A stretch of 33,751 nucleotides of DNA from a virus. The DNA lies in the IMG/VR virus record IMGVR_UViG_3300034018_000736, positions 1 to 33,751 of that record; one strand, 5' to 3'. Made by a program: the position numbers and the translations under genes. Shown piece by piece: positions 3,921 through 29,060 of this stretch. Numbering within the stretch: the stretch's first letter is position 1; the number at the start of each line of letters is the position of its first letter. The notes below the pieces were generated by a model that was not told where the DNA came from, did not search any database, and saw only the letters and a list, made by a program, of their open reading frames with translations.

Positions 3921-4201
3921 AGATACTGCTTCGAGTGCTGCACAAACTGGCAAAGTCTCGTGGCGAAGTCGATCCCGATGCGTGCATCACGCACGACTAC
4001 GGCGACGGCTGGGTAGAGGTAGACGAGACGCACCCGGCCTACCCGCGAGCAAAGCCCGGCCTGGGCGACATGGTGGCATCAGGGCTGTCGGCCATCGGCG
4101 TTACCAAAGAACGGGTGAGCAAGGCCGTGGGCGGTGACTGCGGCTGTCACAAGCGGCAGGAAGCACTCAACGAACTCGGCCGCAAGATCGGCATTGGTTG
4201 A
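3917..4201 (+). CDS. Small protein of the tail-tip block with a C-terminal CGCxxRxxxLN motif, 94 aa
   Basis: Starts with an ATGA overlap. The C-terminal half reads GLGDMVASGLSAIGVTKERV, then a short linker and CGCHKRQEALNELG. This combination (GLGD, a small hydrophobic helix, CGC-x2-R-x3-LN) is one I recall from the ends of phage structural proteins, often those near tail fibres. The two clustered Cys plus His could bind a metal. No enzyme motif is present. The role is unknown; it may be an accessory tail or assembly factor. Confidence 0.55.
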   Translation: MKILLRVLHKLAKSRGEVDPDACITHDYGDGWVEVDETHPAYPRAKPGLGDMVASGLSAIGVTKERVSKAVGGDCGCHKRQEALNELGRKIGIG

Positions 4202-4236
4202 CGCCCCCGCTACGGTGGTGCTTGAAAGGGCGAGCC

Positions 4237-4521
4237 GTGGCAGACCACCACTTCACGCTGAACGGCGACGAGCTTTGGCTCGTCCGGTTTACGGACCTTA
4301 AGGGCCAGGCCTACGGCTACACGTTTTCGCAGAAGTCAAAGCGGCCACGCATCTTGATTCACAGCGGGCTCAAGGGCCGGCACCGCCTGACGATCATCGT
4401 CCACGAGTTGCTGCACGCTCTATTCCCCACAGCAAGTGAAGAGCACGTCGAGCAGGCAGGCAAGGATGTCGCCAAGGTTCTCTACTCGCTGTCATACCGA
4501 GAGGTGAATGATGGGCCGTAG
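4237..4521 (+). CDS. Small HExxH protein (putative zinc metallopeptidase-like), 94 aa
   Basis: GTG 4237 is chosen because GAAAGGG lies about 6 nt upstream; the frame is open back to a TTG at 4198 that overlaps the previous stop, which is the alternative start. The core is IIVHELLHALFP followed by SEEHVEQAG: an HExxH zinc motif (H-E-L-L-H) with a downstream Glu/His-bearing helix that could supply the third ligand, as in gluzincin-like enzymes. The protein is much smaller than usual metallopeptidases. A structural zinc site or a single-domain peptidase are both possible. It overlaps the metallophosphoesterase gene. Function in the phage is unknown. Confidence 0.6.
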   Translation: MADHHFTLNGDELWLVRFTDLKGQAYGYTFSQKSKRPRILIHSGLKGRHRLTIIVHELLHALFPTASEEHVEQAGKDVAKVLYSLSYREVNDGP

Positions 4522-6165: not shown

Positions 6166-6227
6166 GCCAGGGCTTGAGCGGCGGCGGTTTTATCCCTTTC
6201 CCGCCGTCGCTCGCCCTGTGCCTAGGC
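6160..6227. terminator. 68-bp near-palindrome, probable bidirectional terminator between convergent genes
   Basis: Three nested arms pair across a 13-nt pyrimidine-rich loop: GCCTAGGC (6160-6167 with 6220-6227), AGGGC/GCCCT (6169-6173 with 6213-6217) and a 12-bp arm with one G-T pair (6176-6187 with 6201-6212). The TAG of the upstream gene (6163-6165) and the integrase stop (6222-6224, other strand) sit symmetrically in the two CCTAGG cores. T-runs lie in the loop, not after the stem, so termination is inferred from structure and position. Confidence 0.65.
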
Positions 6228-7136
6228 CGCTGGCGTGCTTGGCCCGTTCAGATCCAGCGGCGGCAGGCAGTCAACGCTGCTCTGCTCTGTGGGGCAGATC
6301 GTGGGGTCCACGTACCGCTCCTGTAGCTTCGGGTCGCTGTGATCAAGCACCTGCGTGGCTGCGGCCGTACCGCCCGCCAGGGCTGCGTATGAGGCCCGAG
6401 TACGCCTAAGCCCGTGGAAGCCCCTGTAACGCACGCCAGAGAGCCTGCAAAGCAGCTTGAGGCTAGTCCACAGGCTTCCCCTGGCTCTGTCCCAGTGCCA
6501 CACCAGTTCGTCAGGCTGGCCCCGCTGCGGCAGCATCATGGCCGCCAGCTGCTCGGTGAAGTCTCGCTCTATGTCGTGCGTCTGCCCTTTGCGAGTTTCA
6601 CCGCGAAATATCACCCGCCGACGCTCGAGGTCTAGTTCGCCCCACCTGAGCGACAACAGAGCCGTTGCCCGTTCTCCCGTGCAATACGCCATGTAGATCA
6701 GCGTTGCCCACCACCAGCAAGACAACTTGCCGCCGGTGCGTCCGCGCCGGTGACGAGATTGCCGAATCAACTGCGCCACGTCTTCGGCCGTGTAGGCCCG
6801 GCCTGTGGGGATGCTCTTTGACACCTTGATGCGTGGAAGCTCTGGAAAGTCTTTCGCCCACCGCTTGCGGGCAGCAAGATTCCACACAGCGGCCAGCATC
6901 ACCTTGTCTTTCTGCACGCTCGCCGGCCTCACGACCTTGCCGCCCCAGGACTGCGTAGCACGGGCTCTGAGGTAGCGACTTATTACGAGGTCATCTAGGT
7001 CGGCAACCGTTGGCTCGTGCCCCAGGAACGCACGCAGGCGATCCAAGAGCATCGAGTACAGCACCATCGTTTTCGGGTTCAGATTCCGCAGGTCCGCATA
7101 CCGCTCAAACAACTCAGCCAACGTCATCGGTTCCAT
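6222..7136 (-). CDS. int: Phage tyrosine recombinase (integrase), 304 aa
   Basis: Catalyses site-specific recombination between attP and attB. The catalytic residues are visible in the C-terminal domain: Arg156 (CTGERATALLSL), Lys183 (GETRKGQ), His241 and Arg244 (HGLRRT), His266 (LDHSDPK) and the Tyr275 nucleophile (QERY). An N-terminal SAM-like, core-binding domain spans about residues 1-95. The start is the ATG at 7136-7134: AAGGAG lies about 7 nt upstream on this strand. An in-frame GTG two codons earlier is the alternative. It is the only convincing - strand gene and it makes the phage temperate. A 21-bp palindrome lies just upstream. Confidence 0.93.
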   Translation of the reverse strand: MEPMTLAELFERYADLRNLNPKTMVLYSMLLDRLRAFLGHEPTVADLDDLVISRYLRARATQSWGGKVVRPASVQKDKVMLAAVWNLAARKRWAKDFPELPRIKVSKSIPTGRAYTAEDVAQLIRQSRHRRGRTGGKLSCWWWATLIYMAYCTGERATALLSLRWGELDLERRRVIFRGETRKGQTHDIERDFTEQLAAMMLPQRGQPDELVWHWDRARGSLWTSLKLLCRLSGVRYRGFHGLRRTRASYAALAGGTAAATQVLDHSDPKLQERYVDPTICPTEQSSVDCLPPLDLNGPSTPAA

Positions 7137-7158
7137 TGCCACTCTCCTTTTTGCTTAG

Positions 7159-12807: not shown

Positions 12808-13052
12808 CGCTCTCTGACTTCGTCTGGCTGGCAATCGGTGAAACACTTCTCGCGGGCACTTTCGCTCTCGGGATTCTTGTAGGGGTATCTCTTAATCGAA
12901 AGGGCCAAAGGAATGGCAACTGCAACCAAGGAACGGAAGACGAGTGGAATCACGCTAGCAACGTCAACGCTACGGGCGGCTCTTGCCGACGTGCTCAGGG
13001 CTGTGCCGACAAGACACGCGAAGCCCATCCTGGGCAACGTCCGACTAGGTGA
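12804..13052 (+). CDS. Possible small membrane protein overlapping the clamp gene, 82 aa
   Basis: The ATG overlaps the previous stop (ATGA). Residues 3-30 (FVWLAIGETLLAGTFALGILVGVSL) form one clear transmembrane helix followed by basic residues. From about residue 37 the frame runs through the first 140 bases of the sliding clamp gene, and that part looks like out-of-frame polar sequence. The N-terminal membrane segment is credible; the long overlapping tail may be an accident of a lost stop. Confidence 0.4.
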   Translation: MTLSDFVWLAIGETLLAGTFALGILVGVSLNRKGQRNGNCNQGTEDEWNHASNVNATGGSCRRAQGCADKTREAHPGQRPTR

Positions 13053-14031
13053 CGGGCTGCTGACGGGCACGGATCTCGAGGTGCGAATCGACCGCGAGAT
13101 CGACTACCACGGCGACGCCATGCTGCTGCCGGCTCATCGGCTCAGCGCCATCCTGCGGGCCGCGAGCGGCGACGAGGTGGTGCTGAAGGTTGGCGAGTCC
13201 AGCGTCACCGTGAAGTGTGGCTCTGGCTCGTGGACGCTGCCCACCGAAGACGCTGCAGAGTTCCCGACGTGGGACGCTGGCGATCTAAAGGCAATCTGCC
13301 GCCTGCCTGCGGATCAGTTCTGCCGGGCCGCCAAGGCCACGACGTACGCCACGGACACCGAAAGCAGCCGCTACGCACTGGGTGGCGTCATGCTTGACGT
13401 GGAGTCAACCGCAGACGGTTCGCGTCAGCATTGGGTTGGAACGGACGGGCGACGCCTGGCGTGCGTCGAGACTGAGAGCGACGATGCCGTTGACGCCTCG
13501 CAGACCATCGTGCCGGCCAGGCTGCTGGCGACGGTGGCAACCATGGCCACGGGTGACGGCAGCGTGCAGGTGGAGTCCAACGGCAAAGAAGTCCGCTTCT
13601 CACTGGACGGCTGCACGATTACGGGCCGGCTCGTGGACGGCCGCTATCCACGGTGGCGTGACGTTGTTGGCGAGGCGGAAGGTGAGCCCACCGTGATCGA
13701 CGTGGTTGAGCTGCTCCAGGCGGTGCGGTCTGCTGCCATCGTCACCAGTGAGCAGTCCAAGGGTATCTCGCTAACGTGGACGGCCAACACGCTGGTGCTC
13801 GTGGGCCGCTCGAGCGAGTACGGCGAGAGCAAGGTGATCTGCCCGACGATCGCGGCGGGCTCGACGGCGAGCACCAAGCTGGACCCGAAGTACCTGGCCC
13901 AGTTCTTGGCGAACCTGCCAGCCGACGAAGAGCCGCATGTTGACGTGTACGTGAAGGACGCCCAGAGCCGCGTGCTTCTACGCTGCGGCCCGTACACCGG
14001 CGTCATCATGCCGCTTGCGGAGGACGCCTGA
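12913..14031 (+). CDS. dnaN: DNA polymerase III beta subunit (sliding clamp), 372 aa
   Basis: Ring-shaped clamp that tethers DNA polymerase to DNA. Length (372) equals bacterial DnaN. Visible marks: the N-terminal LRAALADVLRAVPTRHAKPILGNVRL, then TGTDLEVRI; WVGTDGRRLACVE in domain 2; VDGRYPRWRDV at the domain 2-3 link; and the C-terminal VIMPLAEDA, matching the usual VMPxR/L end. AAAGGA lies just before the ATG at 12913. A phage-borne clamp is uncommon in a 34-kb temperate phage and suggests it replaces the host clamp or diverts host DNA polymerase. The stop overlaps the HTH gene (ATGATGG). Confidence 0.9.
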   Translation: MATATKERKTSGITLATSTLRAALADVLRAVPTRHAKPILGNVRLGDGLLTGTDLEVRIDREIDYHGDAMLLPAHRLSAILRAASGDEVVLKVGESSVTVKCGSGSWTLPTEDAAEFPTWDAGDLKAICRLPADQFCRAAKATTYATDTESSRYALGGVMLDVESTADGSRQHWVGTDGRRLACVETESDDAVDASQTIVPARLLATVATMATGDGSVQVESNGKEVRFSLDGCTITGRLVDGRYPRWRDVVGEAEGEPTVIDVVELLQAVRSAAIVTSEQSKGISLTWTANTLVLVGRSSEYGESKVICPTIAAGSTASTKLDPKYLAQFLANLPADEEPHVDVYVKDAQSRVLLRCGPYTGVIMPLAEDA

Positions 14032-15440: not shown

Positions 15441-15737
15441 ATGCGTTTCGTTTTGCTTCTCGCCGCCCTGGCGTTCGCTTCCGTTGCCAACGCCGATACC
15501 ACCGTGGTGGCTCGTCGTGGCTCTGTCATCAGTGCCCAGGACCACGCCGTCGTGATCGCTCGCCGTGGCTCGCTTGTGCATTCCAGCTGCGGCCAGTACG
15601 AGGGCATTGGCACGGGCTCGACGCCAGAGGCCGCCCGGCGCAACTGCTGCTTCTTCGGGAAGCGCGTCATTGTTGAGGAAGGCGTGGCGTACTCGCCCGT
15701 CGCTCGTCGCTGGTTCGCGGTGATTCGCTACCGCTGA
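15441..15737 (+). CDS. Small secreted protein with Cys-Cys core, 98 aa
   Basis: AGGAGG 6 nt before the ATG fixes the start. Residues 1-19 are a Sec signal peptide (RFVLLLAALAFASVANA, cleavage after ANA). The mature part has two short VARRGS / IARRGS repeats, then CGQYEGIGTGSTPEAARRNCCFFGKR. I remember the Y/F-EG-G-----AA---CC pattern from short exported planctomycete proteins. It stands alone behind a long intergenic region, so it may have its own promoter and be a lysogenic-conversion or envelope-acting gene. Both are inference. Confidence 0.6.
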   Translation: MRFVLLLAALAFASVANADTTVVARRGSVISAQDHAVVIARRGSLVHSSCGQYEGIGTGSTPEAARRNCCFFGKRVIVEEGVAYSPVARRWFAVIRYR

Positions 15738-16138
15738 TGCACGCCGTGTCGTTCACCGTCGCAGGGCAGCCCGTCCCACAGCCGAGGCCGCGAGTCTCGA
15801 CTGCGGGCGGGTTCGCCCGTGCGTACGTGCCAGGGCAGCACCCAGTGCATGCCTACCGCGAGGCCATCGCAGCAGCTGCTCGAGCGGCTGGGCTCACGAC
15901 AACCGGCGAGGTGCTCAACGTCGTGATTGATGCGGTGTTTGAGCGGCCGAAGTCGCACCTACTGAAGAGCGGCGTCAAACCCGACGCGCCGAAGCTGCCT
16001 AGGCCCGACGTAGACAACATCGCCAAGGCCGTGCTGGACGCACTGCAGGAAGTGATGGGCGATGACTCGCTGGTGGGCCGGTTGGTGGTGGAGAAGTCCT
16101 ACGGAACGGAGGCACGGACTACCGTGCGAGTGTCGTGA
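15737..16138 (+). CDS. rusA: RusA-family Holliday junction resolvase, 133 aa
   Basis: Cuts four-way DNA junctions in recombination or before packaging. The family marks are present: the N-terminal FTVAGQPVPQPRPR strand with conserved Pro/Arg, and PRPDVDNIAKAVLDAL, with Asp91, Asp93 and Asp101, followed by GDDS and Lys120. Length fits RusA (about 120-135). The start shares a base with the preceding TGA. With RecT it completes a small recombination set. Confidence 0.85.
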   Translation: MHAVSFTVAGQPVPQPRPRVSTAGGFARAYVPGQHPVHAYREAIAAAARAAGLTTTGEVLNVVIDAVFERPKSHLLKSGVKPDAPKLPRPDVDNIAKAVLDALQEVMGDDSLVGRLVVEKSYGTEARTTVRVS

Positions 16139-16665
16139 GCAACGCCAGCCTGTACCGATACCTGACGTATCACTGCGTCCATTACCCAGTTCGTCATTAC
16201 CTTGAGATCGGCACGCGAGACGGTGACAGCCTGCGAGTCGTGCTTGAGAACACTTCCGGGCTTCAGTCTGTGTGGGTCGCTGATATGTGGGGCACCGACT
16301 ACGGCGGAAGCGGGCGTGGCAACCACGAGCACATTGACCAGCTGCTGGACGATTTCAACTTTGACGGCCGTCGTGCGTTTCTTGATGGCAACAGCCAAGA
16401 CACGATTCCGGCGTTGATGCCAGAGAAGGCCGACGCTTTCGACTTGGTGCTCGTTGACGGCGACCACTCATACGAAGGCGGAATGGCTGACCTTGTGAAC
16501 GTGTGGCCGTTGGTAAAGCCTGGCGGTGCAGTCGTGTTCCACGACATAACTCACCCGGCTCACTTGGACTTGCAGCGGTGCTTTGATGAGTTCGTGGCGT
16601 CCAAGAATGCGCCGCACGAAATCATTGCTGAGCCATATGGCGCGGGAGTCGCGTGGAAACGATGA
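16135..16665 (+). CDS. Class I SAM-dependent methyltransferase, 176 aa
   Basis: A Rossmann methyltransferase of the Methyltransf_24 kind: motif I HYLEIGTRDGDSL near residues 21-34, an acidic WVADMWGTDYGG, FDLVLVDGDHSYEGGMADLVNVWPLVKPGGAVVFHDI in the middle, where motif IV (VDGDHSYE) and the post-II loop are clear. GTG 16135 overlaps the rusA stop. The substrate is not readable; neighbouring glycosyltransferase suggests sugar or glycan O-methylation, which is inference. Confidence 0.75.
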   Translation: MSNASLYRYLTYHCVHYPVRHYLEIGTRDGDSLRVVLENTSGLQSVWVADMWGTDYGGSGRGNHEHIDQLLDDFNFDGRRAFLDGNSQDTIPALMPEKADAFDLVLVDGDHSYEGGMADLVNVWPLVKPGGAVVFHDITHPAHLDLQRCFDEFVASKNAPHEIIAEPYGAGVAWKR

Positions 16666-17570
16666 ATCTTCCAGCACACCTATGGCATCCGTACGAGTTG
16701 TTTGGCGAGTCATACGCCCAGCGTGTCAAAGAGGGCGCTGCCCGGCTGCGAAACTCACGGATTGCTTTCGTGGGCCTTGCCCGAAACTGTGCCGTGCGAC
16801 TTGCTCAGAACCTTGGCCACCTTGAGCAGCTGCAGGATCTGTGCGGCTCGTGGTCGCTGCACATTGAGAGCAACGACTGCGAAGACGCCACACTAGACGT
16901 GCTGCACGACTACTGCCGCGAGAAGCCGCAGGCCACGTTTCACTATCAAATCCTAGGACGCGAGCATTACGGCGCAGAGTTCGCTGGGCGTCGCACGATC
17001 GCCTTGGCTGAATACCGCGACTCATGCCAGCGGTGGGTACGGGCCTGCTCGCATGACGCGGACTATGTGGTCGTGATTGACTGGGACGCATGGGGAGGCT
17101 GGAACCATCACGGCGTGCTCAACGGTTTTGGCTGGCTCGTTGAGTTACCGGGTGCGTACGGCATGGCCAGCGTGTCGCTCAATGAGTGGAAAATGATTTC
17201 GATGGGCGACGATGGCAAGCCAACTCTAGGGAACGGGTGGACGCACTATGACGCCTGGGCCTTGCGTGGCGTTGGTCAGTCTGGTTGCTACTTCGATGAC
17301 TACACGGCCGGGCTAGGCGGCTGGAAACACCAATGGCTGCCGCCGGTTGGCTCGCCGCCCGTGCTCGTCTCGTCTGCGTTTGGGGGCATGTGCATCTACC
17401 GCACCGATGCCTATCTGAAGGGAACGTATGACGGCGTGAGAGACTGCGAGCACGTCCCCTTCCATCAAAGCATCGCTAGAGCCACGGGCCAGCACCTGTA
17501 CCTAAACCCGTCGCAGCGGATGCTGATGAGTTGGATGCCTGAGCCATGCGTGGAATCACCTCAACCATAA
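16662..17570 (+). CDS. Putative glycosyltransferase (GT-A-like with D-x-D), 302 aa
   Basis: ATG 16662 overlaps the methyltransferase stop (ATGA); a GTG at 16653 is the alternative. The protein opens with RIAFVGLARNCAVRLAQNLGHL and IESNDCEDATLDVL, and has YVVVIDWDAWGG, a D-x-D metal/nucleotide-sugar motif. Later come SAFGGMCIYR and CEHVPFHQSI, with His-bearing ends. This order resembles GT69/CMT1-like mannosyltransferases. It probably modifies host surface glycans or virion proteins together with the adjacent methyltransferase. The target is unknown. Confidence 0.65.
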   Translation: MNLPAHLWHPYELFGESYAQRVKEGAARLRNSRIAFVGLARNCAVRLAQNLGHLEQLQDLCGSWSLHIESNDCEDATLDVLHDYCREKPQATFHYQILGREHYGAEFAGRRTIALAEYRDSCQRWVRACSHDADYVVVIDWDAWGGWNHHGVLNGFGWLVELPGAYGMASVSLNEWKMISMGDDGKPTLGNGWTHYDAWALRGVGQSGCYFDDYTAGLGGWKHQWLPPVGSPPVLVSSAFGGMCIYRTDAYLKGTYDGVRDCEHVPFHQSIARATGQHLYLNPSQRMLMSWMPEPCVESPQP

Positions 17571-18197: not shown

Positions 18198-18500
18198 ATG
18201 CCAGCGTATGAAGCCACGCCCGCCGAGCTCGAGCAGTACGGATCGAAACTCACGATATGGCAGCAACTCGCCCTGCTGCAGGCTTGGTCGCCGCTCATTG
18301 GCTACGGCCAGCGGTTCATCAACGAGGCAGACCCGTACAAGCGAAGCATCATCGTCAGTGATGCTTCCGAGTGGCTTGCGTCCAAGACAAACGCCCAGGC
18401 CGATGACCAGCTGGTGCGTCTGCTTGGCGACTTGCTGAAGACTAAGCAAGGCGAAGCCTTGGTCCGGTGGTGCCTGCTGCAAGTGGAGGCCGTCCGTTGA
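18198..18500 (+). CDS. Hypothetical alpha-helical protein, 100 aa
   Basis: Starts 3 nt after the previous stop. Predicted all-alpha (LTIWQQLALLQAWSPLIGYGQRF, then ASEWLASKT and LVRLLGDLLKTKQGEALVRWCLLQVE), without signal or membrane segment. It overlaps the next gene by 4 nt (TTGA). Function unknown; its position is before the lysis-type block. Confidence 0.5.
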   Translation: MPAYEATPAELEQYGSKLTIWQQLALLQAWSPLIGYGQRFINEADPYKRSIIVSDASEWLASKTNAQADDQLVRLLGDLLKTKQGEALVRWCLLQVEAVR

Positions 18501-19105
18501 GCGATGATTCAATCATACGCCTTGCAGCCGTGGTGGCGGCGGTTGCTCTGCTGGCCGCCCCGTATCGGGAAACAATCGCTGGCTGGCTCTCTCAGGCCGC
18601 CGAAGCCTGCTACGCCAAGCGTTCCGCGCTAAGCAGAATCGCAGCAGCGCTGCTGATTCTCGCGGCGGCATGGGGGCAGATCCCGATGCCCAAGCTTCCG
18701 GCGGCTCCTGCCGTCACTGTGGACGTGGAGACTCCGAGCGTGGAGATGCAGCAGCTGGTGCGGCCAGTGGCCGAGTCCCTTAAGGCGTTGCCAATGGGCG
18801 ACCGCATGCTGTGGGCTCAGACGTGGAACAAAGCCGCCACCGTCGTGGCCGGCGACGCCGTGACCACCGAAGTGGCCTTCACCGACACCCGCTCGCTGCG
18901 GATGTTCACCACGCTGGCCATAGAAATCGCGTGGCGTCGCATCGGGCAGCATGCACCAGGCTCAGTGGCAGGGCTCAGGGAGGCCGTGGAGGCCGCCTAC
19001 GGGCAGGCTATTGGCGTGGACGTGGTTTCGGTCACGGCTGACGTGCGAAGCCGTTACGCAGCCTTTGCCAAGGCCGTGGCGTGGGCCGGCGTCAACGGAG
19101 GCTGA
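18497..19105 (+). CDS. Membrane protein with N-terminal transmembrane helices, 202 aa
   Basis: TTG 18497 overlaps the previous stop (TTGA), with GTGGAGG upstream; a start at 18467 is less likely. Two hydrophobic stretches lie near the N-terminus (LAAVVAAVALLAAPYR and IAAALLILAAAWGQI), separated by a short basic loop, then a Pro/Val-rich hinge and a soluble domain of about 130 residues. Position just before the papain-like protease suggests a lysis or membrane-anchored role. No known holin or spanin family is recognised. Confidence 0.5.
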   Translation: MSDDSIIRLAAVVAAVALLAAPYRETIAGWLSQAAEACYAKRSALSRIAAALLILAAAWGQIPMPKLPAAPAVTVDVETPSVEMQQLVRPVAESLKALPMGDRMLWAQTWNKAATVVAGDAVTTEVAFTDTRSLRMFTTLAIEIAWRRIGQHAPGSVAGLREAVEAAYGQAIGVDVVSVTADVRSRYAAFAKAVAWAGVNGG

Positions 19106-19108
19106 CGC

Positions 19109-20029
19109 ATGACCGAGCACGGCATGGGCTATGTGCCCGACCCGGAAGGCTCTGAGGCGTTCGTGGCAACGCTGCCACACCCAACGCTTGCATCAGCCGG
19201 GCCTGACCTCAAGGCCGCTGACCAAGACGTGATGCTGTACCCGGCCCTGCTTCAGTGCATGCCGTCCTGGCGTCGAGGCTCGCAGGGAAACGTTGGAAGT
19301 TGCGTTGGCTGGGGCGCGTCGCTCGCAGTAGACGTGCTCGCTGCGACGGACATCCATTGGCGGAAAGAGCCCGAAGCGTGGAACGGCCGCACGATCGAGG
19401 CCAGTTTGTATGGTTTTTCGCGCGTCGAGGCTCGCGGGCAGAAGACAAACACGGGCGGCGACGGCAGCACGGGATTCCACGCAGCCAAGAGCATCCGCGA
19501 CTATGGTGCCCTGCACTACGGCGTGGACTACGGCGGCACTGTGTTCGACAAGCACAGCAGTCAGCGGGAACGCGACTGGGGCCGCAACGGCGTGCCCGAC
19601 GTGCTTGAGCGGTTCGCCAAGGAAAGGCGTTGCTCTGAGACAACGCTAGCCACGTCGTTTGTGGAGGCGGCGAAAGCCATCAGCAACGGCTACCCGGTTG
19701 TCGTGTGCAGCGGCCAGGGCTTCAGCATGAGCCGAGACGCTGACGGCTTTTGTAAGCCGGGTGGCGTCTGGTGGCACTGCATGTGCTTCATCGGCGTGCG
19801 GTTTGGCAAGCGTCCTGGCCTGCTCTGTGCCAACTCGTGGGGAGACAGCAACACGGTTGGCAAGCACTTCCCCGAGACGATGCCGGATGTCGTCCGTAAG
19901 TGCTCTTTCTGGGTGGATGCCGACGTGTGCGACCGCATGCTCAGCGGACGCGATTCCTACGTCTACGCCGGGTACAGCGGGTTTAAGCCAACGGCGATGC
20001 CTGACAACTGGCTGCGAGGTGTGCTGTGA
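19109..20029 (+). CDS. Papain-like (C1-type) cysteine protease, 306 aa
   Basis: The four papain-fold catalytic positions are present in order: Gln59 (oxyanion hole), Cys65 in GNVGSCVGWGASLAVD, His223 in GVWWHCMCFIGV and Asn242 in CANSWGDS. Q-to-C spacing of 6 equals papain, and Asn is in the standard NSWG context. There is no signal peptide. Phage papain-fold enzymes include peptidoglycan hydrolases, but this C1-type active site is a true protease signature. It lies between membrane proteins in a lysis-like block, so an endolysin, a virion protease or a host-directed protease are options. It is coupled to the lipoprotein gene (GTGA). Confidence 0.75.
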   Translation: MTEHGMGYVPDPEGSEAFVATLPHPTLASAGPDLKAADQDVMLYPALLQCMPSWRRGSQGNVGSCVGWGASLAVDVLAATDIHWRKEPEAWNGRTIEASLYGFSRVEARGQKTNTGGDGSTGFHAAKSIRDYGALHYGVDYGGTVFDKHSSQRERDWGRNGVPDVLERFAKERRCSETTLATSFVEAAKAISNGYPVVVCSGQGFSMSRDADGFCKPGGVWWHCMCFIGVRFGKRPGLLCANSWGDSNTVGKHFPETMPDVVRKCSFWVDADVCDRMLSGRDSYVYAGYSGFKPTAMPDNWLRGVL

Positions 20030-20265
20030 GGTTTCTGATCTGCCTGCTCGTTGTTGTGATCGGATGCGTGGCAACGCTGCCTGACGATCACGGCGTTTCG
20101 GCTGACATGGCCTGCGAGACAGCCCGCATAGTGGTGCAGCTGCGGCACGAGATCGCCCCGACGCCGGCCAGCGACAAGTGTGACAACTGCGATGGCACGG
20201 GCACCATTGGCGACGGCCGTATTGCCCTGCCTTGCCCTGTCTGCAAAGGAACGGGCAAGAAATGA
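20026..20265 (+). CDS. Lipoprotein with DnaJ-like zinc motif, 79 aa
   Basis: GTG 20026 overlaps the protease stop. Residues 1-14 (FLICLLVVVIGC) form a lipobox signal (VVIGC, lipidated Cys). The C-terminal CDNCDGTGTIGDGR, then CPVCKGTGKK is a pair of CxxCxGxG zinc motifs as in the DnaJ central domain. All four zinc cysteines are present. A 40-residue polar linker separates the two. The product should be a membrane-anchored, zinc-stabilised small protein, perhaps an outer spanin-like part or a partner of the protease (inference). Confidence 0.65.
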   Translation: MRFLICLLVVVIGCVATLPDDHGVSADMACETARIVVQLRHEIAPTPASDKCDNCDGTGTIGDGRIALPCPVCKGTGKK

Positions 20266-20579
20266 CACGGGAAGAACTTGTTGCCGACGTGTGGGACTCG
20301 CTGCCGATGCGTAAGCATCTAATAGGCCGTGAGCGTGTTGGCCGCATTGTGGAGCGGGCTTTGAGGGAATGGCCCATTCCGGTGCTGTACCAGTGCGACG
20401 CCAAGCAAACCGAGGTGGTAGCCAAACACTTCGCACGGCGTCTTGAACGCCAGGAGCGTGAGTACGGCATGGGCTTTCTGGCCAGCATCATCCTGGCGGC
20501 CATCATCAGCGAGATCGTCAAGAAAATCGTGCAGCGGTGGCTGGATAATCGTGGCGAGATGCTGGAGGCCATGCAGTGA
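20262..20579 (+). CDS. Hypothetical protein with C-terminal transmembrane helix, 105 aa
   Basis: ATGA overlap with the lipoprotein gene. Residues 1-75 are soluble and basic/acidic mixed (ELVADVWDSLPMRKHLIGRERVGRIVERAL...). Residues 77-92 (GMGFLASIILAAIISEIVKKIV) form a single membrane helix flanked by basic residues. Type and position fit a lysis-block protein such as a holin partner. No known family recognised. Confidence 0.5.
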   Translation: MTREELVADVWDSLPMRKHLIGRERVGRIVERALREWPIPVLYQCDAKQTEVVAKHFARRLERQEREYGMGFLASIILAAIISEIVKKIVQRWLDNRGEMLEAMQ

Positions 20580-20818
20580 CCGACCAAGCCAAGGAAACGC
20601 TCTTCGGCATCATTGAGCGGTGGGGATTTCCCACTTTGGTAGCCATTGCCTGCGGCTGGGTGCTGCGGGCTGACGTGTTGCTGCCCCTCGTTGAAGAGCA
20701 TCGGGCGTTCGTGAAGTCACTGAGCGAGACGCAACGCGAGATCAGCAAGGCAGTGAGCGAGCAGACGCGGTTGTTGTATGCCCTACAGCCTCGAGCAACG
20801 GAACAGCAGGAGAACTAA
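20576..20818 (+). CDS. Probable holin-like protein, one TM helix and coiled coil, 80 aa
   Basis: GTG 20576 overlaps the previous stop. The N-terminal third has one membrane helix (FPTLVAIACGWVLRADVLLPL) and the rest is an amphipathic helix/coiled coil (EEHRAFVKSLSETQREISKAVSEQTRLLYAL). Small single-TM proteins with a coiled-coil tail are typical of BhlA-like holins. It is the last of the three small membrane proteins after the protease. Holin function is inferred from size, topology and context. Confidence 0.5.
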   Translation: MTDQAKETLFGIIERWGFPTLVAIACGWVLRADVLLPLVEEHRAFVKSLSETQREISKAVSEQTRLLYALQPRATEQQEN

Positions 20819-22720: not shown

Positions 22721-22775
22721 GGAAAACCAGAAGTTCCTGCTTCTGTGCGCGGGGCCGAAATTGGGAGTTTGCAAC

Positions 22776-23234
22776 ATGGGCAAGGGCCGCAAGCCGACGC
22801 CTAAACCGCTGCTTAAGCTTCGCGGCGCTCGCGTTAGAGGCCCGCACAAGTCCGGCATAGACGCCGTTCCAGGCATCCCGCCTGCTCCACATTGGCTTTC
22901 GGATCTCGCCCGCGAGGAGTGGGAGCGGATCGTGCCCATGCTCGAGGCGTCCAAGGTCATGAGCCCCAGGCACCAGCAGACGCTGGCCGCTTACTGCGAC
23001 TCGCTCGCGGACATGATTGAGGCAGACCGTGAGCTCAAGGCCAACGGTGCCACGTTCATGGACGACAAAGGTAGGGTAAGCAATCACCCGGCGTGGAACC
23101 GCAAACGAGACGCGAGAAACCAGATGCTGAAGTTCGCGGCCGAGTTCGGCCTGACGGCCTCGGCGCTGGCCCGTGTCTCGGCGGTTGAGAATGGCCCGCA
23201 AGCAGACGAAGAAGACGCCCGAATGTTCGCTTGA
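22776..23234 (+). CDS. terS: Terminase small subunit (P27 family), 152 aa
   Basis: Binds packaging sites on DNA and feeds it to the large subunit. The basic N-terminus (GKGRKPTPKPLLKLRG) and the helical body (LSDLAREEWERIVPMLEASKVM-PRHQQTLAAYCDSLADMIEAD) match P27-type small subunits. ATG 22776 with GGGAG 8 nt upstream is chosen over an in-frame TTG at 22761. It overlaps the large subunit by 44 nt, a normal arrangement. Confidence 0.85.
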   Translation: MGKGRKPTPKPLLKLRGARVRGPHKSGIDAVPGIPPAPHWLSDLAREEWERIVPMLEASKVMSPRHQQTLAAYCDSLADMIEADRELKANGATFMDDKGRVSNHPAWNRKRDARNQMLKFAAEFGLTASALARVSAVENGPQADEEDARMFA

Positions 23235-24756
23235 GCACCCGTGCGAGAAGTGCTCCTCGTGTCTGGCGGTGCGTTTCTTCCACAAGCACCTGACACACGC
23301 CAAGGGCGAGCTCGGCGGCAAGCCGTTTACGCTTGAGCCGTGGCAGCAGGACTACGTGCGAAAGCTCTTCGCCACAGAGGGCGACGTGCGAAAAGTCCGC
23401 ACTAGCCTGCTGGCGATTCCGCGCAAAAATGGAAAGAGCAGTTTATGCGCGGGCATTGCACTCAAGCTGCTGATGGAGAACGAGCCCGGCTGTGAAGTCT
23501 ATTCGTGCGCGGCCTCACGCGATCAGGCTCGGCTCGTCTTTGACATGGCCCGCGTCTACGTCGAGCAGTCGCCGGTGCTGCGTCAGCATCTCAAGGTGTA
23601 CCGCAACGCGATCGTGCGAGAGGCGACGCACGGCACGTACAAGGCACTTTCCGCCGAGGCTGGAATCCAGCACGGGCTCTCGGCTCACGGCGTGATTTTC
23701 GATGAGCTGCATGTAAGTAACCGCGAGATGTGGGAAGTGATGCTGAGCAGCCAGGGTGCTCGGCGGCAGCCGCTCACGGTGGCGCTCACCACGGCAGGCT
23801 TTGACCGCAAGAGCGTCTGCTGGGAAATCTGGAAATACGCTGAGGCTGTGGCCGCTGGCACGGTCAAAGACGAGACGTTTCTGCCAGCCATCTATGCCGC
23901 ACCGATTGAGGCCGATTGGAAAGACGAGAAAACGTGGGAGCGTGCCAACCCCAACCTAGGCGTCTCGGTGCGTATGGACTTCCTGCGAAGCGAATGTGCT
24001 CGAGCGGTTGAGATGCCAACGTATGAGAACACTTTTCGGCAGCTGTACTTGAACCAGTGGACAGAGCAAAGCACAAGGTGGCTGCGGATGGATCACTGGG
24101 CCCAAGGCGACAAGCCGTGCCCCGTTGATCTGGCCGGCCGAGAGTGCTGGGCCGGGTTGGACTTGGCCACCACGTTTGACACCACAGCCCTAGTGCTGCT
24201 GTTCCCGCTGGATGATGGCACGTTTTGGGTTGAGCCGCACTTCTGGATCCCGAGCGACAACGCCCACCAGCGAGAGCGACGCGACAAAGTGCCCTACCTG
24301 ACGTGGCATCGGCAGGGGCATCTGAACATGACCGATGGCAACGTCACGGACTTCGATCAGGTGCGTTCAGACATCAACGCCATAGCCAGTAAGTACAAGG
24401 TCTGCGGCATCGGCCTGGACCCGTGGAACTCCGCGCAACTCGGCCAACAACTGCAAGGCGACGGGCTTCCCATGTCAGACTTTCGACAGGGCTATGGATC
24501 TTTATCCGCGCCCTCGAAGCAACTCGAAAACTGGTGCGTGTCTGGAAAACTGATACACGGTGGGCACCCAGTGCTGTCGTGGCAGGCTTCCAACGTGGCC
24601 ATCCAGCAGGATTCCGCAGCCGGAAACATTAAGCCGAGCAAGGCCAAGAGCACAGAAAGAATAGACGGCATCGTGTCGCTAGTCATGGCCATCGGGCTGT
24701 GGCAGAAGGCAACCGCAGCCACGCCAGAACAGTCCTGGGACATGATGACGCTATGA
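23191..24756 (+). CDS. terL: Terminase large subunit with N-terminal Cys cluster, 521 aa
   Basis: ATPase/nuclease motor that packages DNA. The Walker A-like PRKNGKSS (residues 77-84) and Walker B VIFDE (168-172) are clear; the nuclease part follows from about residue 300 with CWAGLDLATTFD. ATG 23191 is chosen over an upstream GTG. Residues 12-24 hold C-x5-C-x2-C-x2-C, an uncommon possible zinc site in front of the ATPase. The size fits HK97-type enzymes. The stop overlaps the portal start (ATGA). Confidence 0.93.
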   Translation: MARKQTKKTPECSLEHPCEKCSSCLAVRFFHKHLTHAKGELGGKPFTLEPWQQDYVRKLFATEGDVRKVRTSLLAIPRKNGKSSLCAGIALKLLMENEPGCEVYSCAASRDQARLVFDMARVYVEQSPVLRQHLKVYRNAIVREATHGTYKALSAEAGIQHGLSAHGVIFDELHVSNREMWEVMLSSQGARRQPLTVALTTAGFDRKSVCWEIWKYAEAVAAGTVKDETFLPAIYAAPIEADWKDEKTWERANPNLGVSVRMDFLRSECARAVEMPTYENTFRQLYLNQWTEQSTRWLRMDHWAQGDKPCPVDLAGRECWAGLDLATTFDTTALVLLFPLDDGTFWVEPHFWIPSDNAHQRERRDKVPYLTWHRQGHLNMTDGNVTDFDQVRSDINAIASKYKVCGIGLDPWNSAQLGQQLQGDGLPMSDFRQGYGSLSAPSKQLENWCVSGKLIHGGHPVLSWQASNVAIQQDSAAGNIKPSKAKSTERIDGIVSLVMAIGLWQKATAATPEQSWDMMTL

Positions 24757-26057
24757 GCGAAAACGCAGCCGCTGACTTCAAGATGTTCGACCTGCGTGGC
24801 ATCGACTGGCCCGAAGTGAGTTCCAGCCGCACGCCTTCCGGCATTCGCGTCAACGCCGACAACTCCATGGCGTGCTCGGCGTACACCGCCTGCATCCGCG
24901 TCATATCGGATGCGGTATCTGCCCTGCCGCTGCACATCTACGAGCGGATGGCCAACGGCGGAAAACAGAAGGCCACGAGCCATCCCGTGTATCGCCTGCT
25001 GCACCAGCAGCCAAATCCCTGGCAGACGGCCCAAGAGTTCCGCGATTGGATGACCGGCATGTACCTGCATTACGGTGCGAGCTACGCCGAGATTCGCCCA
25101 GGTGCTCGAGGTGCCGTGTCTGAGTTGTGGCCGCTGCACTCCAGCCGCATGGAGGCTGAGCGGCTGACTGATGGCACGCTGCGTTATCGGTACCGCGAGC
25201 CGAGTGGGCAGCAGACGATCTACAGCCAGGAGCAGATCTTCGCCCTGCGATTCACGACCGAAGACGGCATCAAGGCGATCCCGACCTACAAGATTTTCCA
25301 GAACGCCATCGGCCTGGCCCAGGCCCTTGAGACACACGGCAGCACGTACTTCGGCAACGGTGCCCGGCCCGGCATCGTGCTGGAGAGCGACAACCCGATT
25401 CCCATCGAAGCTGCTGAGCGACTCCGCGAGCAGTGGGAGCGGATGCACCGTGGTGCCGACCGTGCGTTTCGCACAGCTGTGCTGCCTAACGGCGTGAAGG
25501 CCCACGAGCTCAGCGGATCAAACGAAGCAGCCCAGATGCTTGAGAGCCGGGCTTTTCAAGTGGTTGAAATCTGCCGGGCGTTTCGCGTGCCGCCGCACAT
25601 GATCCAGATGCTGGACCGCAGCACATTCAACAACATTGAAGTCCAGGGCACGGAGTTTGTGCAGCATTGCCTGCTCCCGCACTTGAAGCGGTGGGAGGCC
25701 GCGATCAGCCGCGACCTGATCGTAGATGACGAGAAGTATTTTGCTGAGCACAGCGTGAGTGGCCTGCTTCGCGGCGACCACGCAAGCCGGTCTGCCTACT
25801 ACGTTTCCGCCCTTCAGAACGGTTGGATGACGGTGAACGAAGTGAGAGAGCTAGAGAACCTAAATCCAATCGGGCCAGAGGGCGACCAGCATTTCATCCA
25901 GTTGAACATGACCACCCTGGAAAAGGCAGGCGAGCCACAGCCGCAAGATCCGCAGCCGATGCCGCAGGACACGCCGGGCGAGCCAGCGGACGGCACGCCA
26001 GAAGACGAGGCCGAAGACACGACTACCGCCCAGGAGGACACGCCCGATGGAACTTGA
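24753..26057 (+). CDS. HK97-family portal protein, 434 aa
   Basis: Forms the dodecameric DNA channel. Family marks: N-terminal V-ADNSMACSAYTACIRVISDAVSALPLHIYER, HPVYRLLHQQPNPWQTAQEFRDWMTGMYLHYGASYAEI, then GSTYFGNGARPGIVL and FRVPPHMIQMLDRSTFNNIEVQG. The C-terminal tail is Pro/Glu-rich and disordered (from about residue 390). ATG 24753 overlaps the terL stop. It overlaps the protease gene by 11 nt. Confidence 0.93.
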   Translation: MSENAAADFKMFDLRGIDWPEVSSSRTPSGIRVNADNSMACSAYTACIRVISDAVSALPLHIYERMANGGKQKATSHPVYRLLHQQPNPWQTAQEFRDWMTGMYLHYGASYAEIRPGARGAVSELWPLHSSRMEAERLTDGTLRYRYREPSGQQTIYSQEQIFALRFTTEDGIKAIPTYKIFQNAIGLAQALETHGSTYFGNGARPGIVLESDNPIPIEAAERLREQWERMHRGADRAFRTAVLPNGVKAHELSGSNEAAQMLESRAFQVVEICRAFRVPPHMIQMLDRSTFNNIEVQGTEFVQHCLLPHLKRWEAAISRDLIVDDEKYFAEHSVSGLLRGDHASRSAYYVSALQNGWMTVNEVRELENLNPIGPEGDQHFIQLNMTTLEKAGEPQPQDPQPMPQDTPGEPADGTPEDEAEDTTTAQEDTPDGT

Positions 26058-26715
26058 GCGCCGCTGCCTTGCGTTTGACGAGTGCCCAGAAGCCGAGCTC
26101 ACTATTGAGACTCGGGCCAACGGCACGCAGGTGCTGACTGGGTATGCCGCTGTCTACAACCGCTTCAGCCTTCCGTTGCGTGAAGGTGGTTCGCAGTTCC
26201 GCGAGATCATCCTGCCGGGTGCGTTCGATAAAGTTCTCAACCGCCAGCGCGGCAAGCAGGACGTGGTGGCGTTGCTAAACCACAACCCAGACCTGATTCT
26301 CGGCCGGTCAGCCAGTGGCACGCTGGAGCTCACCAGCGATGATAAGGGGCTGCGGTATACCGTCATTCCGCCTGATACGCAGGTGGGGCGCGACACGATG
26401 GAACTGGTTAGACGGCGTGACCTTAAGGGCAGTAGCTTTGCCTTCGGCCTTGAACCGGGCAAGGGCGACAGGTGGTCTAGCGACGAGCAAGGCGCAGTCA
26501 GAGAAGTGCGGGAAGTCAGTTCGCTCGTAGACGTTTCCGTTGTTCTGACGCCCGCCTACCCAGCGAGCAGCGTTACCGTTGCTCAGCGTTCCTACGAGGC
26601 ATGGATTGCATCGCAGTCCGCCGAAGAGCCGGCAGTTCGGGCGGTTAGTTCGCGTTCGGCCTTGCGGGGCGTCGCCGCCGCCTGGGCTGCCACCTTAAGG
26701 CTCAAGAATGTCTGA
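26047..26715 (+). CDS. HK97-family prohead protease (S78), 222 aa
   Basis: Matures the capsid by cutting the delta domain. The catalytic His is in VVALLNHNPDLILGR and Ser in LKGSSFAFG; Tyr/Phe-rich GYAAVYNRFSLPL is the usual N-terminal part, and SLVDVSVVLTPAYP is the family's C-terminal motif. Length is typical. The stop overlaps the small zinc-ribbon gene by 8 nt. Confidence 0.92.
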   Translation: MELERRCLAFDECPEAELTIETRANGTQVLTGYAAVYNRFSLPLREGGSQFREIILPGAFDKVLNRQRGKQDVVALLNHNPDLILGRSASGTLELTSDDKGLRYTVIPPDTQVGRDTMELVRRRDLKGSSFAFGLEPGKGDRWSSDEQGAVREVREVSSLVDVSVVLTPAYPASSVTVAQRSYEAWIASQSAEEPAVRAVSSRSALRGVAAAWAATLRLKNV

Positions 26716-28248: not shown

Positions 28249-28277
28249 GCCTGACGGCTTGACGAGTGTGCAATCTT

Positions 28278-28319
28278 GAGCGGGCGGCTTCCACGACGGG
28301 GCCGCCCGCTCTCTCTTTT
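28278..28319 (+). terminator. Strong intrinsic terminator after the capsid gene
   Basis: An 11-bp perfect GC-rich stem (28278-28288 with 28301-28311) around a 12-nt loop is followed by TCTCTTTT. It lies 30 nt after the capsid stop and would limit transcription into the connector and tail genes, keeping capsid mRNA in excess. Confidence 0.85.
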
Positions 28320-28328
28320 GAGGCACGC

Positions 28329-29060
28329 ATGCTGGTCAAGGTAGGTGGCACCGAAGTCGATATTCGCGTTGAGGCAGTCATGTCGATGCCTCGCCTTTCG
28401 TTCACTGCAAATCACTTTGCGTGGGCTCAGGCATTTATGCCGCTCGGCATACGTCCGACAATGGGGGTCGGTTGTTTTTGGGATCAGGTGAATACTCGAG
28501 TAATGGAGACGTTCATTGACTCTTGCGAGTATTTACTTCTCACAGACTACGACAGTTTTTTTACGAGGCAGGACCTTGAGCAGTTAATGGCTCTGGCATT
28601 TACGTTTCAGTGCGACGCCATCACGGGCCTGCAGACGAAACGCGAGGACGGCAGGCCGATGCTCACGTTGCTTGGCACGCTGGACAATCCGCCAGATGAC
28701 GGCCACACGCAGGTACCAAAAGAGTGGTTTGCCGAGCCCGTGCAGGAAGTCGATACCGCCCATTTCGGCTGCACAATCATCAGCACTGCCGCACTCAAGC
28801 GAGCCAAGAAGCCTTGGTTCTGGAGCAAGCCGGACTCTGGCGGCTCGTGGAACGATGGCAGGATTGATCCTGACATCTACTTCTGGCGGAACTGGCGAGA
28901 CAGCGGCAACCGCGTCTTCGTCTCGCCGCGTGTCGTTTTGGGCCATGGCGAGTACGTCGTGACGTGGCCCGGCAAGAACCTTACTGCCCCTGTTTTTCAG
29001 TGGACTACTGAGTTCACGAACACGGGCAAACCGCCAGAATCTGCATGGAGTGTGGGCTAA
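28329..29060 (+). CDS. Putative glycosyltransferase (GT-A-like) between capsid and connectors, 243 aa
   Basis: ATG 28329 with GAGG 5 nt upstream; a start at 28380 (MSMPRLSF) is the alternative and a longer frame through the terminator was rejected. YLLLTDYDSFFTRQDLEQLM carries a D-x-D motif (metal/nucleotide sugar). AHFGCTIISTAALKR and IDPDIYFWRNWRDSGNRVFVSPRVVLGHGEYVVTWP resemble GT-A donor/acceptor regions with an ending Gly-His. A gene for a sugar enzyme inside the structural operon suggests capsid or tail glycosylation (inference). Confidence 0.65.
   Translation: MLVKVGGTEVDIRVEAVMSMPRLSFTANHFAWAQAFMPLGIRPTMGVGCFWDQVNTRVMETFIDSCEYLLLTDYDSFFTRQDLEQLMALAFTFQCDAITGLQTKREDGRPMLTLLGTLDNPPDDGHTQVPKEWFAEPVQEVDTAHFGCTIISTAALKRAKKPWFWSKPDSGGSWNDGRIDPDIYFWRNWRDSGNRVFVSPRVVLGHGEYVVTWPGKNLTAPVFQWTTEFTNTGKPPESAWSVG

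Follow-up and report, generated by a model that had tools for sequence, protein, structure and literature searches.

The well-studied double-stranded DNA phages of bacteria exit by cutting peptidoglycan, and the lysis genes of phage lambda follow the order S-R-Rz, or holin, endolysin and spanin. A survey of viral lytic proteins recognizes amidases, muramidases, peptidases, transglycosylases and glucosaminidases as endolysins, and the word 'papain' does not occur in its text (PMC12596118). A review of the papain superfamily assigns the lysins of phages to its CHAP/NlpC branch (PMC10318531). At the level of titles and abstracts, the literature yielded no lysis cassette with a C1A-type enzyme, and the nearest working analogy is that of PeiW and PeiP, the thiol-dependent pseudomurein endoisopeptidases of methanogen viruses (PMC4592898), in which lysis by a virus depends on a Cys-His-Asp/Asn thiol peptidase and not on a murein hydrolase (PMC4592898; PMC2989375). 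This comparison is one of function, with a sequence relation neither claimed nor seen, and both host and cassette differ from those of the locus described here.

This locus lies in a 33,751-base virus record with a tailed-phage layout, IMGVR_UViG_3300034018_000736, all of which was analyzed and is called the window below. Tail genes are found at both ends of the window, which may miss a short piece of the tape-measure gene. Inside them, an integrase (6222-7142, minus strand), a RecT-like protein, DnaN (12913-14031) and RusA (15737-16138) lead to a six-gene block (18198-20818), followed in order by an HNH gene, the small and large terminase subunits (22761-24756, plus strand; Pfam Terminase_4, 2e-24, and TerL_nuclease, 5.5e-49), the portal, an S78 prohead serine protease (26047-26715, plus strand; Pfam PF04586, 1.1e-39), the capsid and connectors. 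The genome is of a bacterial type (DnaN, sigma-like helix-turn-helix proteins) and would appear to be that of a temperate tailed phage. The DnaN gene, a phage-borne DNA polymerase III beta clamp, is kept in 9 of 10 relatives, a small HExxH protein with a weak M78/IrrE-like match (4198-4521) is kept in 7 of 10, and a conserved secreted protein of 98 aa (15441-15737) adjoins RusA.

The six genes of the block, all on the plus strand, encode a small protein, an anchored protein, a protease, a zinc-motif lipoprotein and two single-helix membrane proteins. The position of the block, between RusA and late genes on one side and HNH-TerS-TerL on the other, is lambda-like, and an enzyme gene and genes for small membrane proteins form a cluster among the late genes, as in a holin-endolysin-spanin set. 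Like lambda S-R-Rz/Rz1, which also lies upstream of HNH, TerS and TerL, the block consists of overlapping genes, which encode an outer-membrane lipoprotein and small membrane proteins along with a soluble enzyme that has no signal peptide. It differs from lambda in having a predicted C1-type protease in place of a transglycosylase or amidase, in the zinc-type Cys motifs of its lipoprotein, and in a gene order that places the anchored protein before the enzyme. With confidence a little above even, we propose that the block is a lysis (egress) module in which the protease sits in the slot of the peptidoglycan hydrolase and cuts an envelope protein or peptide cross-links.

The first gene of the block (18198-18500) encodes a conserved soluble protein of 100 aa. 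The second (TM1; 18497-19105, 202 aa), which has a TTG start in a 4-nt overlap, encodes a protein with one or two hydrophobic helices at the N-terminus and a domain of ~140 aa that is probably periplasmic; it is kept in 15 diverse homologues and adjoins the protease in all loci that were fetched by using it as the query. Downstream of the protease, a lipoprotein of 79 aa (20026-20265) combines a lipobox (VIGC) with two CxxCxGxG motifs of the DnaJ zinc type; among 85 distinct homologues, a lipobox-like site is present in 68 and the double Cys motif in 71. The next gene (TM2; 20262-20579, 105 aa), the start of which is an ATG within a longer listed open reading frame, encodes a C-terminal hydrophobic helix and is present in nearly all loci. 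The last (20576-20818, 80 aa) encodes a holin-like protein with one N-terminal hydrophobic helix and then a predicted coiled helix. Profile searches placed neither of these two small membrane proteins in a recognized holin family, so the term 'holin-like' for the product of 20576 refers to its architecture. The lipoprotein and the anchored protein occur together in the block, in an unusual gene order and without a match to a spanin family.

The original prediction of a zinc lipoprotein and three membrane proteins around the protease was borne out by the lipobox, the double CxxCxGxG motif and the hydrophobic helices of 18497, 20262 and 20576. Its cassette was recovered as well, with a start that had to be moved upstream to 18198. 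It had described all of the genes as coupled by 4-nt overlaps, which is true of four of the five junctions (those at 18497, 20026, 20262 and 20576), whereas a gap of +3 nt precedes the protease.

The protease itself (19109-20029, 306 aa) is predicted to be a papain-like, C1-type cysteine protease, and hydropathy analysis revealed neither a signal peptide nor a hydrophobic helix. The catalytic set that had been proposed for it (Gln59, Cys65, His223 and Asn242) is exact in position and invariant in 22 aligned relatives (54-94% identity), where the residues lie in the contexts SQG-GSCVGW, WxHxM and NSWG. It therefore has the hallmark of C1A enzymes, a Gln six residues before the catalytic Cys, then His, then Asn (NSWG); the Gln-Cys spacing is 5 in some distant relatives. 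The protein had no significant match among Pfam, PHROG, NCBIfam, PADLOC and PDB sequence profiles. An AlphaFold2 model of moderate quality (pLDDT 65.5, pTM 0.72) retrieved Der p 1, xylellain and cathepsins in Foldseek (E 4.6e-8 and up; TM 0.50/0.66), with 170 PDB matches below 0.001, all papain-type among the 50 of 170 that were listed. In addition, the catalytic residues align with those of a Bacteroidota C1 peptidase in hhalign (84%, E 7e-6). Bacterial C1A peptidases (xylellain, 3ois; Bacteroidota L069:9797-11257) share the predicted fold, the Q/C/H/N set and the NSW motif with this protein, but they are cellular, larger or secreted, have 24-25% local identity to it and are found outside phage cassettes. 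On sequence and predicted fold, the product of 19109-20029 is thus a C1A papain-like peptidase, ordinary in its enzyme class and unusual in its place and company.

Comparison with close relatives gave pN/pS values of 0.17-0.27, indicating that the protease is under purifying selection. Across phages, its C-terminal half, which forms the His/Asn side of the cleft (19650-19960 in the window), is exchanged between two allele types, which occur on different backgrounds. For example, the window protease is 96-100% identical to that of locus L018 over the first seven 26-column blocks of the alignment and 69-81% identical over the four blocks that follow. In those four blocks, L018 is 92-96% identical to L042, apart from the last of the four (77%); this pattern in the alignments suggests an exchange of specificity. 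A role of the enzyme as a defense gene was rejected, and PADLOC returned no match.

At least 235 relatives of the protease are present in IMG/VR, and the block is intact almost without exception in ~120 related viral loci, including some whose TerL, portal and capsid proteins are only 28-44% identical. As a control for circularity, loci were also fetched via the holin-like gene and via 18497; the protease was present in 133 of 133 neighbor-fetched loci that reach the slot, and the 14 that lack it are contigs that stop no more than 1.5 kb from the holin-like gene. The fetched loci cannot be counted as independent events, since many are near-identical or lie on one contig. An all-against-all comparison of 11 whole records found the protease core in every one; at that threshold, the first block gene and the two small membrane genes were missed in one or two records each. 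The enzymes found in all or nearly all of these records are the integrase, RusA, two glycosyltransferase-like proteins, HNH, TerL, S78 and the papain-like protease.

The constancy of the block bears on the proposal that it serves lysogenic conversion of the envelope or superinfection exclusion instead of lysis. Exclusion systems typically include lipoproteins and membrane proteins, and this phage has an integrase, but the block is found in essentially every member of the group, with the protease core in all of the whole records, unlike accessory exclusion genes; its compact, overlapping genes in the late region and the blank PADLOC search further make a role of this kind very unlikely.

Searches of isolated phages found nothing related to the protease, to TM1 or to two other proteases that occupy the same slot, plasmids yielded nothing meaningful, and a genome scan of 84,980 species returned only distant Bacteroidota C1 peptidases. 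The phage group carrying the block is large, environmental and unstudied. One 73-kb record among the relatives (G058, loci L424-L427) has only phage-like genes when read by eye. These form two sets, and what looks like the same 202-aa gene occurs at both 15937 and 63490; the record could represent tandem prophages or a chimeric contig.

Three divergent lineages of cysteine protease occupy the slot: the window type, a 28%-identical homologue and a probable papain-like type. The second was found in loci L307-L309, retrieved via a second holin-like type (from L056), where the neighbors are 94-99% identical and the slot protein is 28-29% identical to the window type; its family has full-length homology to the window type (99.2%) and keeps the Q, C, H and N residues. 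The third type, which lies at 2308-3180 in L319, recurs in at least 104 other loci. Its Q76-C82-H235-D253 set is invariant, and a profile comparison with the window type gave nothing significant; it is probably papain-like, an assignment drawn from these motifs because its model is poor (pLDDT 36) and had no Foldseek match. The second holin-like type is also found outside the block, between nucleotide-kinase-like and tail-fiber genes and with no adjoining enzyme, in L296, L311 and L316.

The third slot type belongs to a sister module with a conserved order in ~50 loci: a small protein, membrane or secreted proteins, the cysteine protease, a zinc-motif protein, a membrane protein and a holin-like protein. 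In eight of eight such records searched, the zinc-motif gene of this module also encodes, as a fusion, a Trypsin_2 domain (E 1e-21), with DegS, DegQ and DegP as its PDB relatives. The DnaJ-type zinc motif and a secreted, DegP-like trypsin domain are thereby found in one protein (L319:3185-3982 and homologues in ~50 loci), which is similar to the window's small lipoprotein at its beginning and at its end (CxDGRC). It shares this domain with periplasmic serine proteases of the DegP/DegS type and differs from them in having no visible PDZ domain, in its fusion to a CxxCxGxG module and in its location in a phage block; the window has no such protein. Where landmarks are visible, the sister module is downstream of the portal gene and not upstream of terminase, and since it keeps its order at this different genome position, the block behaves as a portable module. 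A separate trypsin-like protease occurs in 5 of 33 window-type relatives searched (G013, G015, G018, G033 and G038); the three read closely (L442-L444) have a signal-peptide-like start and, where the neighbors were identified, lie near 15441/RusA.

The position of the sister module near the portal could be taken to indicate a protease for virion maturation or one associated with the tail, as could the location of the window gene, which separates replication and late genes from a lectin-like tail gene and the terminase genes. This possibility is extremely remote, and the prohead-protease version of it is weak because the separate S78 enzyme at 26047-26715 is present; in addition, the neighbors of the papain-like protease are membrane proteins and lipoproteins, and structural modules swap freely without it. 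Prohead protease was accordingly rejected as its identity, the maturation role being filled by S78, and no sign of a structural virion protease was seen in relatives.

The original prediction that the window contains no lysozyme, amidase or transglycosylase held in Pfam searches of its ~45 predicted proteins and in six-frame family searches, neither of which found a known endolysin elsewhere in the window. Across 48-50 long related records, six-frame searches for Amidase_2, Phage_lysozyme, SLT, NLPC_P60 and CHAP gave 0 records and those for M23 and M15_4 gave none over the cut-off, while the positive controls for all seven families were detected. A Pfam search of 100 proteins (the accessory proteins of ten relatives plus the rest of the window) showed no lysis family among 25 of 57 families listed, and a known peptidoglycan hydrolase was never found filling the slot in the fetched loci. 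An endolysin could belong to a family not yet described, or could be encoded in the part of the tail genes that the window's sequence leaves out.

These searches also bear on whether the protease is itself a classical endolysin, a papain-fold enzyme that cuts peptidoglycan stems or cross-bridges within an ordinary holin-endolysin-spanin set, from an unfamiliar enzyme family. The cassette and its position are equally consistent with such an enzyme, papain-fold peptidoglycan hydrolases exist (CHAP, NlpC/P60; PMC10318531), and the pseudomurein endoisopeptidases PeiW and PeiP use Cys-His-Asp (PMC4592898). CHAP and NlpC/P60 endolysins also belong to the broad papain-like superfamily, but their profiles matched none of 48 records; the check that had been suggested, C1A against an amidase fold, thus gave C1A-like motifs (GSC, NSWG) and a predicted fold resembling xylellain and cathepsins, and an identity as a CHAP/NlpC amidase was rejected. 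The protease has no wall-binding domain, and the secreted trypsin-like domain of the sister module favors protein substrates. We consider a classical endolysin unlikely for these reasons.

Lysis is the best-supported role of the block because of its position, its membrane and lipoprotein partners, its core status and the lack of another lytic enzyme, and a protein or peptide target is likelier than a glycan because proteases recur, including a secreted one of the trypsin type. Against a lysis module are the sister module's placement downstream of the portal, outside the lambda position, and the second holin-like type's occurrence outside the block. We infer release, substrate, lysis and host alike: the protease, having no signal peptide, would build up in the cytoplasm until the 80-aa holin-like protein, perhaps with the product of 20262, opens the inner membrane, and it would then enter the periplasm and cleave a protein or peptide part of the envelope. 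The anchored product of 18497 and the outer-membrane zinc lipoprotein (20026) may finish outer-membrane disruption in a spanin-like manner, or may guide the protease. This order of holin-like release, periplasmic cleavage and outer-membrane disruption is modeled on lambda. In the sister branch, a periplasmic trypsin-type enzyme would join the papain-type enzyme in a proteolytic exit.

The lack of a signal peptide and the presence of three membrane proteins in the block are also what would be expected of a cytoplasmic protease that processes a host or phage protein, for takeover or to activate cassette proteins, with the membrane proteins alone causing lysis in a single-gene or amurin-like manner. 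The strict coupling of the protease to outer-membrane or secreted proteins, one of them itself a protease in the sister module, points instead to the envelope, and we view cytoplasmic processing, too, as improbable.

For the lysis module, a broader and tentative proposal is that a widespread phage group exits by proteolysis and not by peptidoglycan hydrolysis, the barrier of its hosts being protein or held together by protein. If true, a phage group with a protease in the slot and no recognized hydrolase would broaden what is meant by an endolysin, suggest that the hosts have an envelope dependent on protein, and offer a source of proteases acting on bacterial envelopes.

Other features of these phages stand apart from the block. 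The two glycosyltransferase-like proteins (16653-17570 and 28266-29060 in the window), one of which lies within the structural module, are present in nearly all relatives, and many relatives encode very cysteine-rich tail proteins with runs such as CCCGKC and CPCCNPC (L126, L132, L142, L141 and L428-L433).
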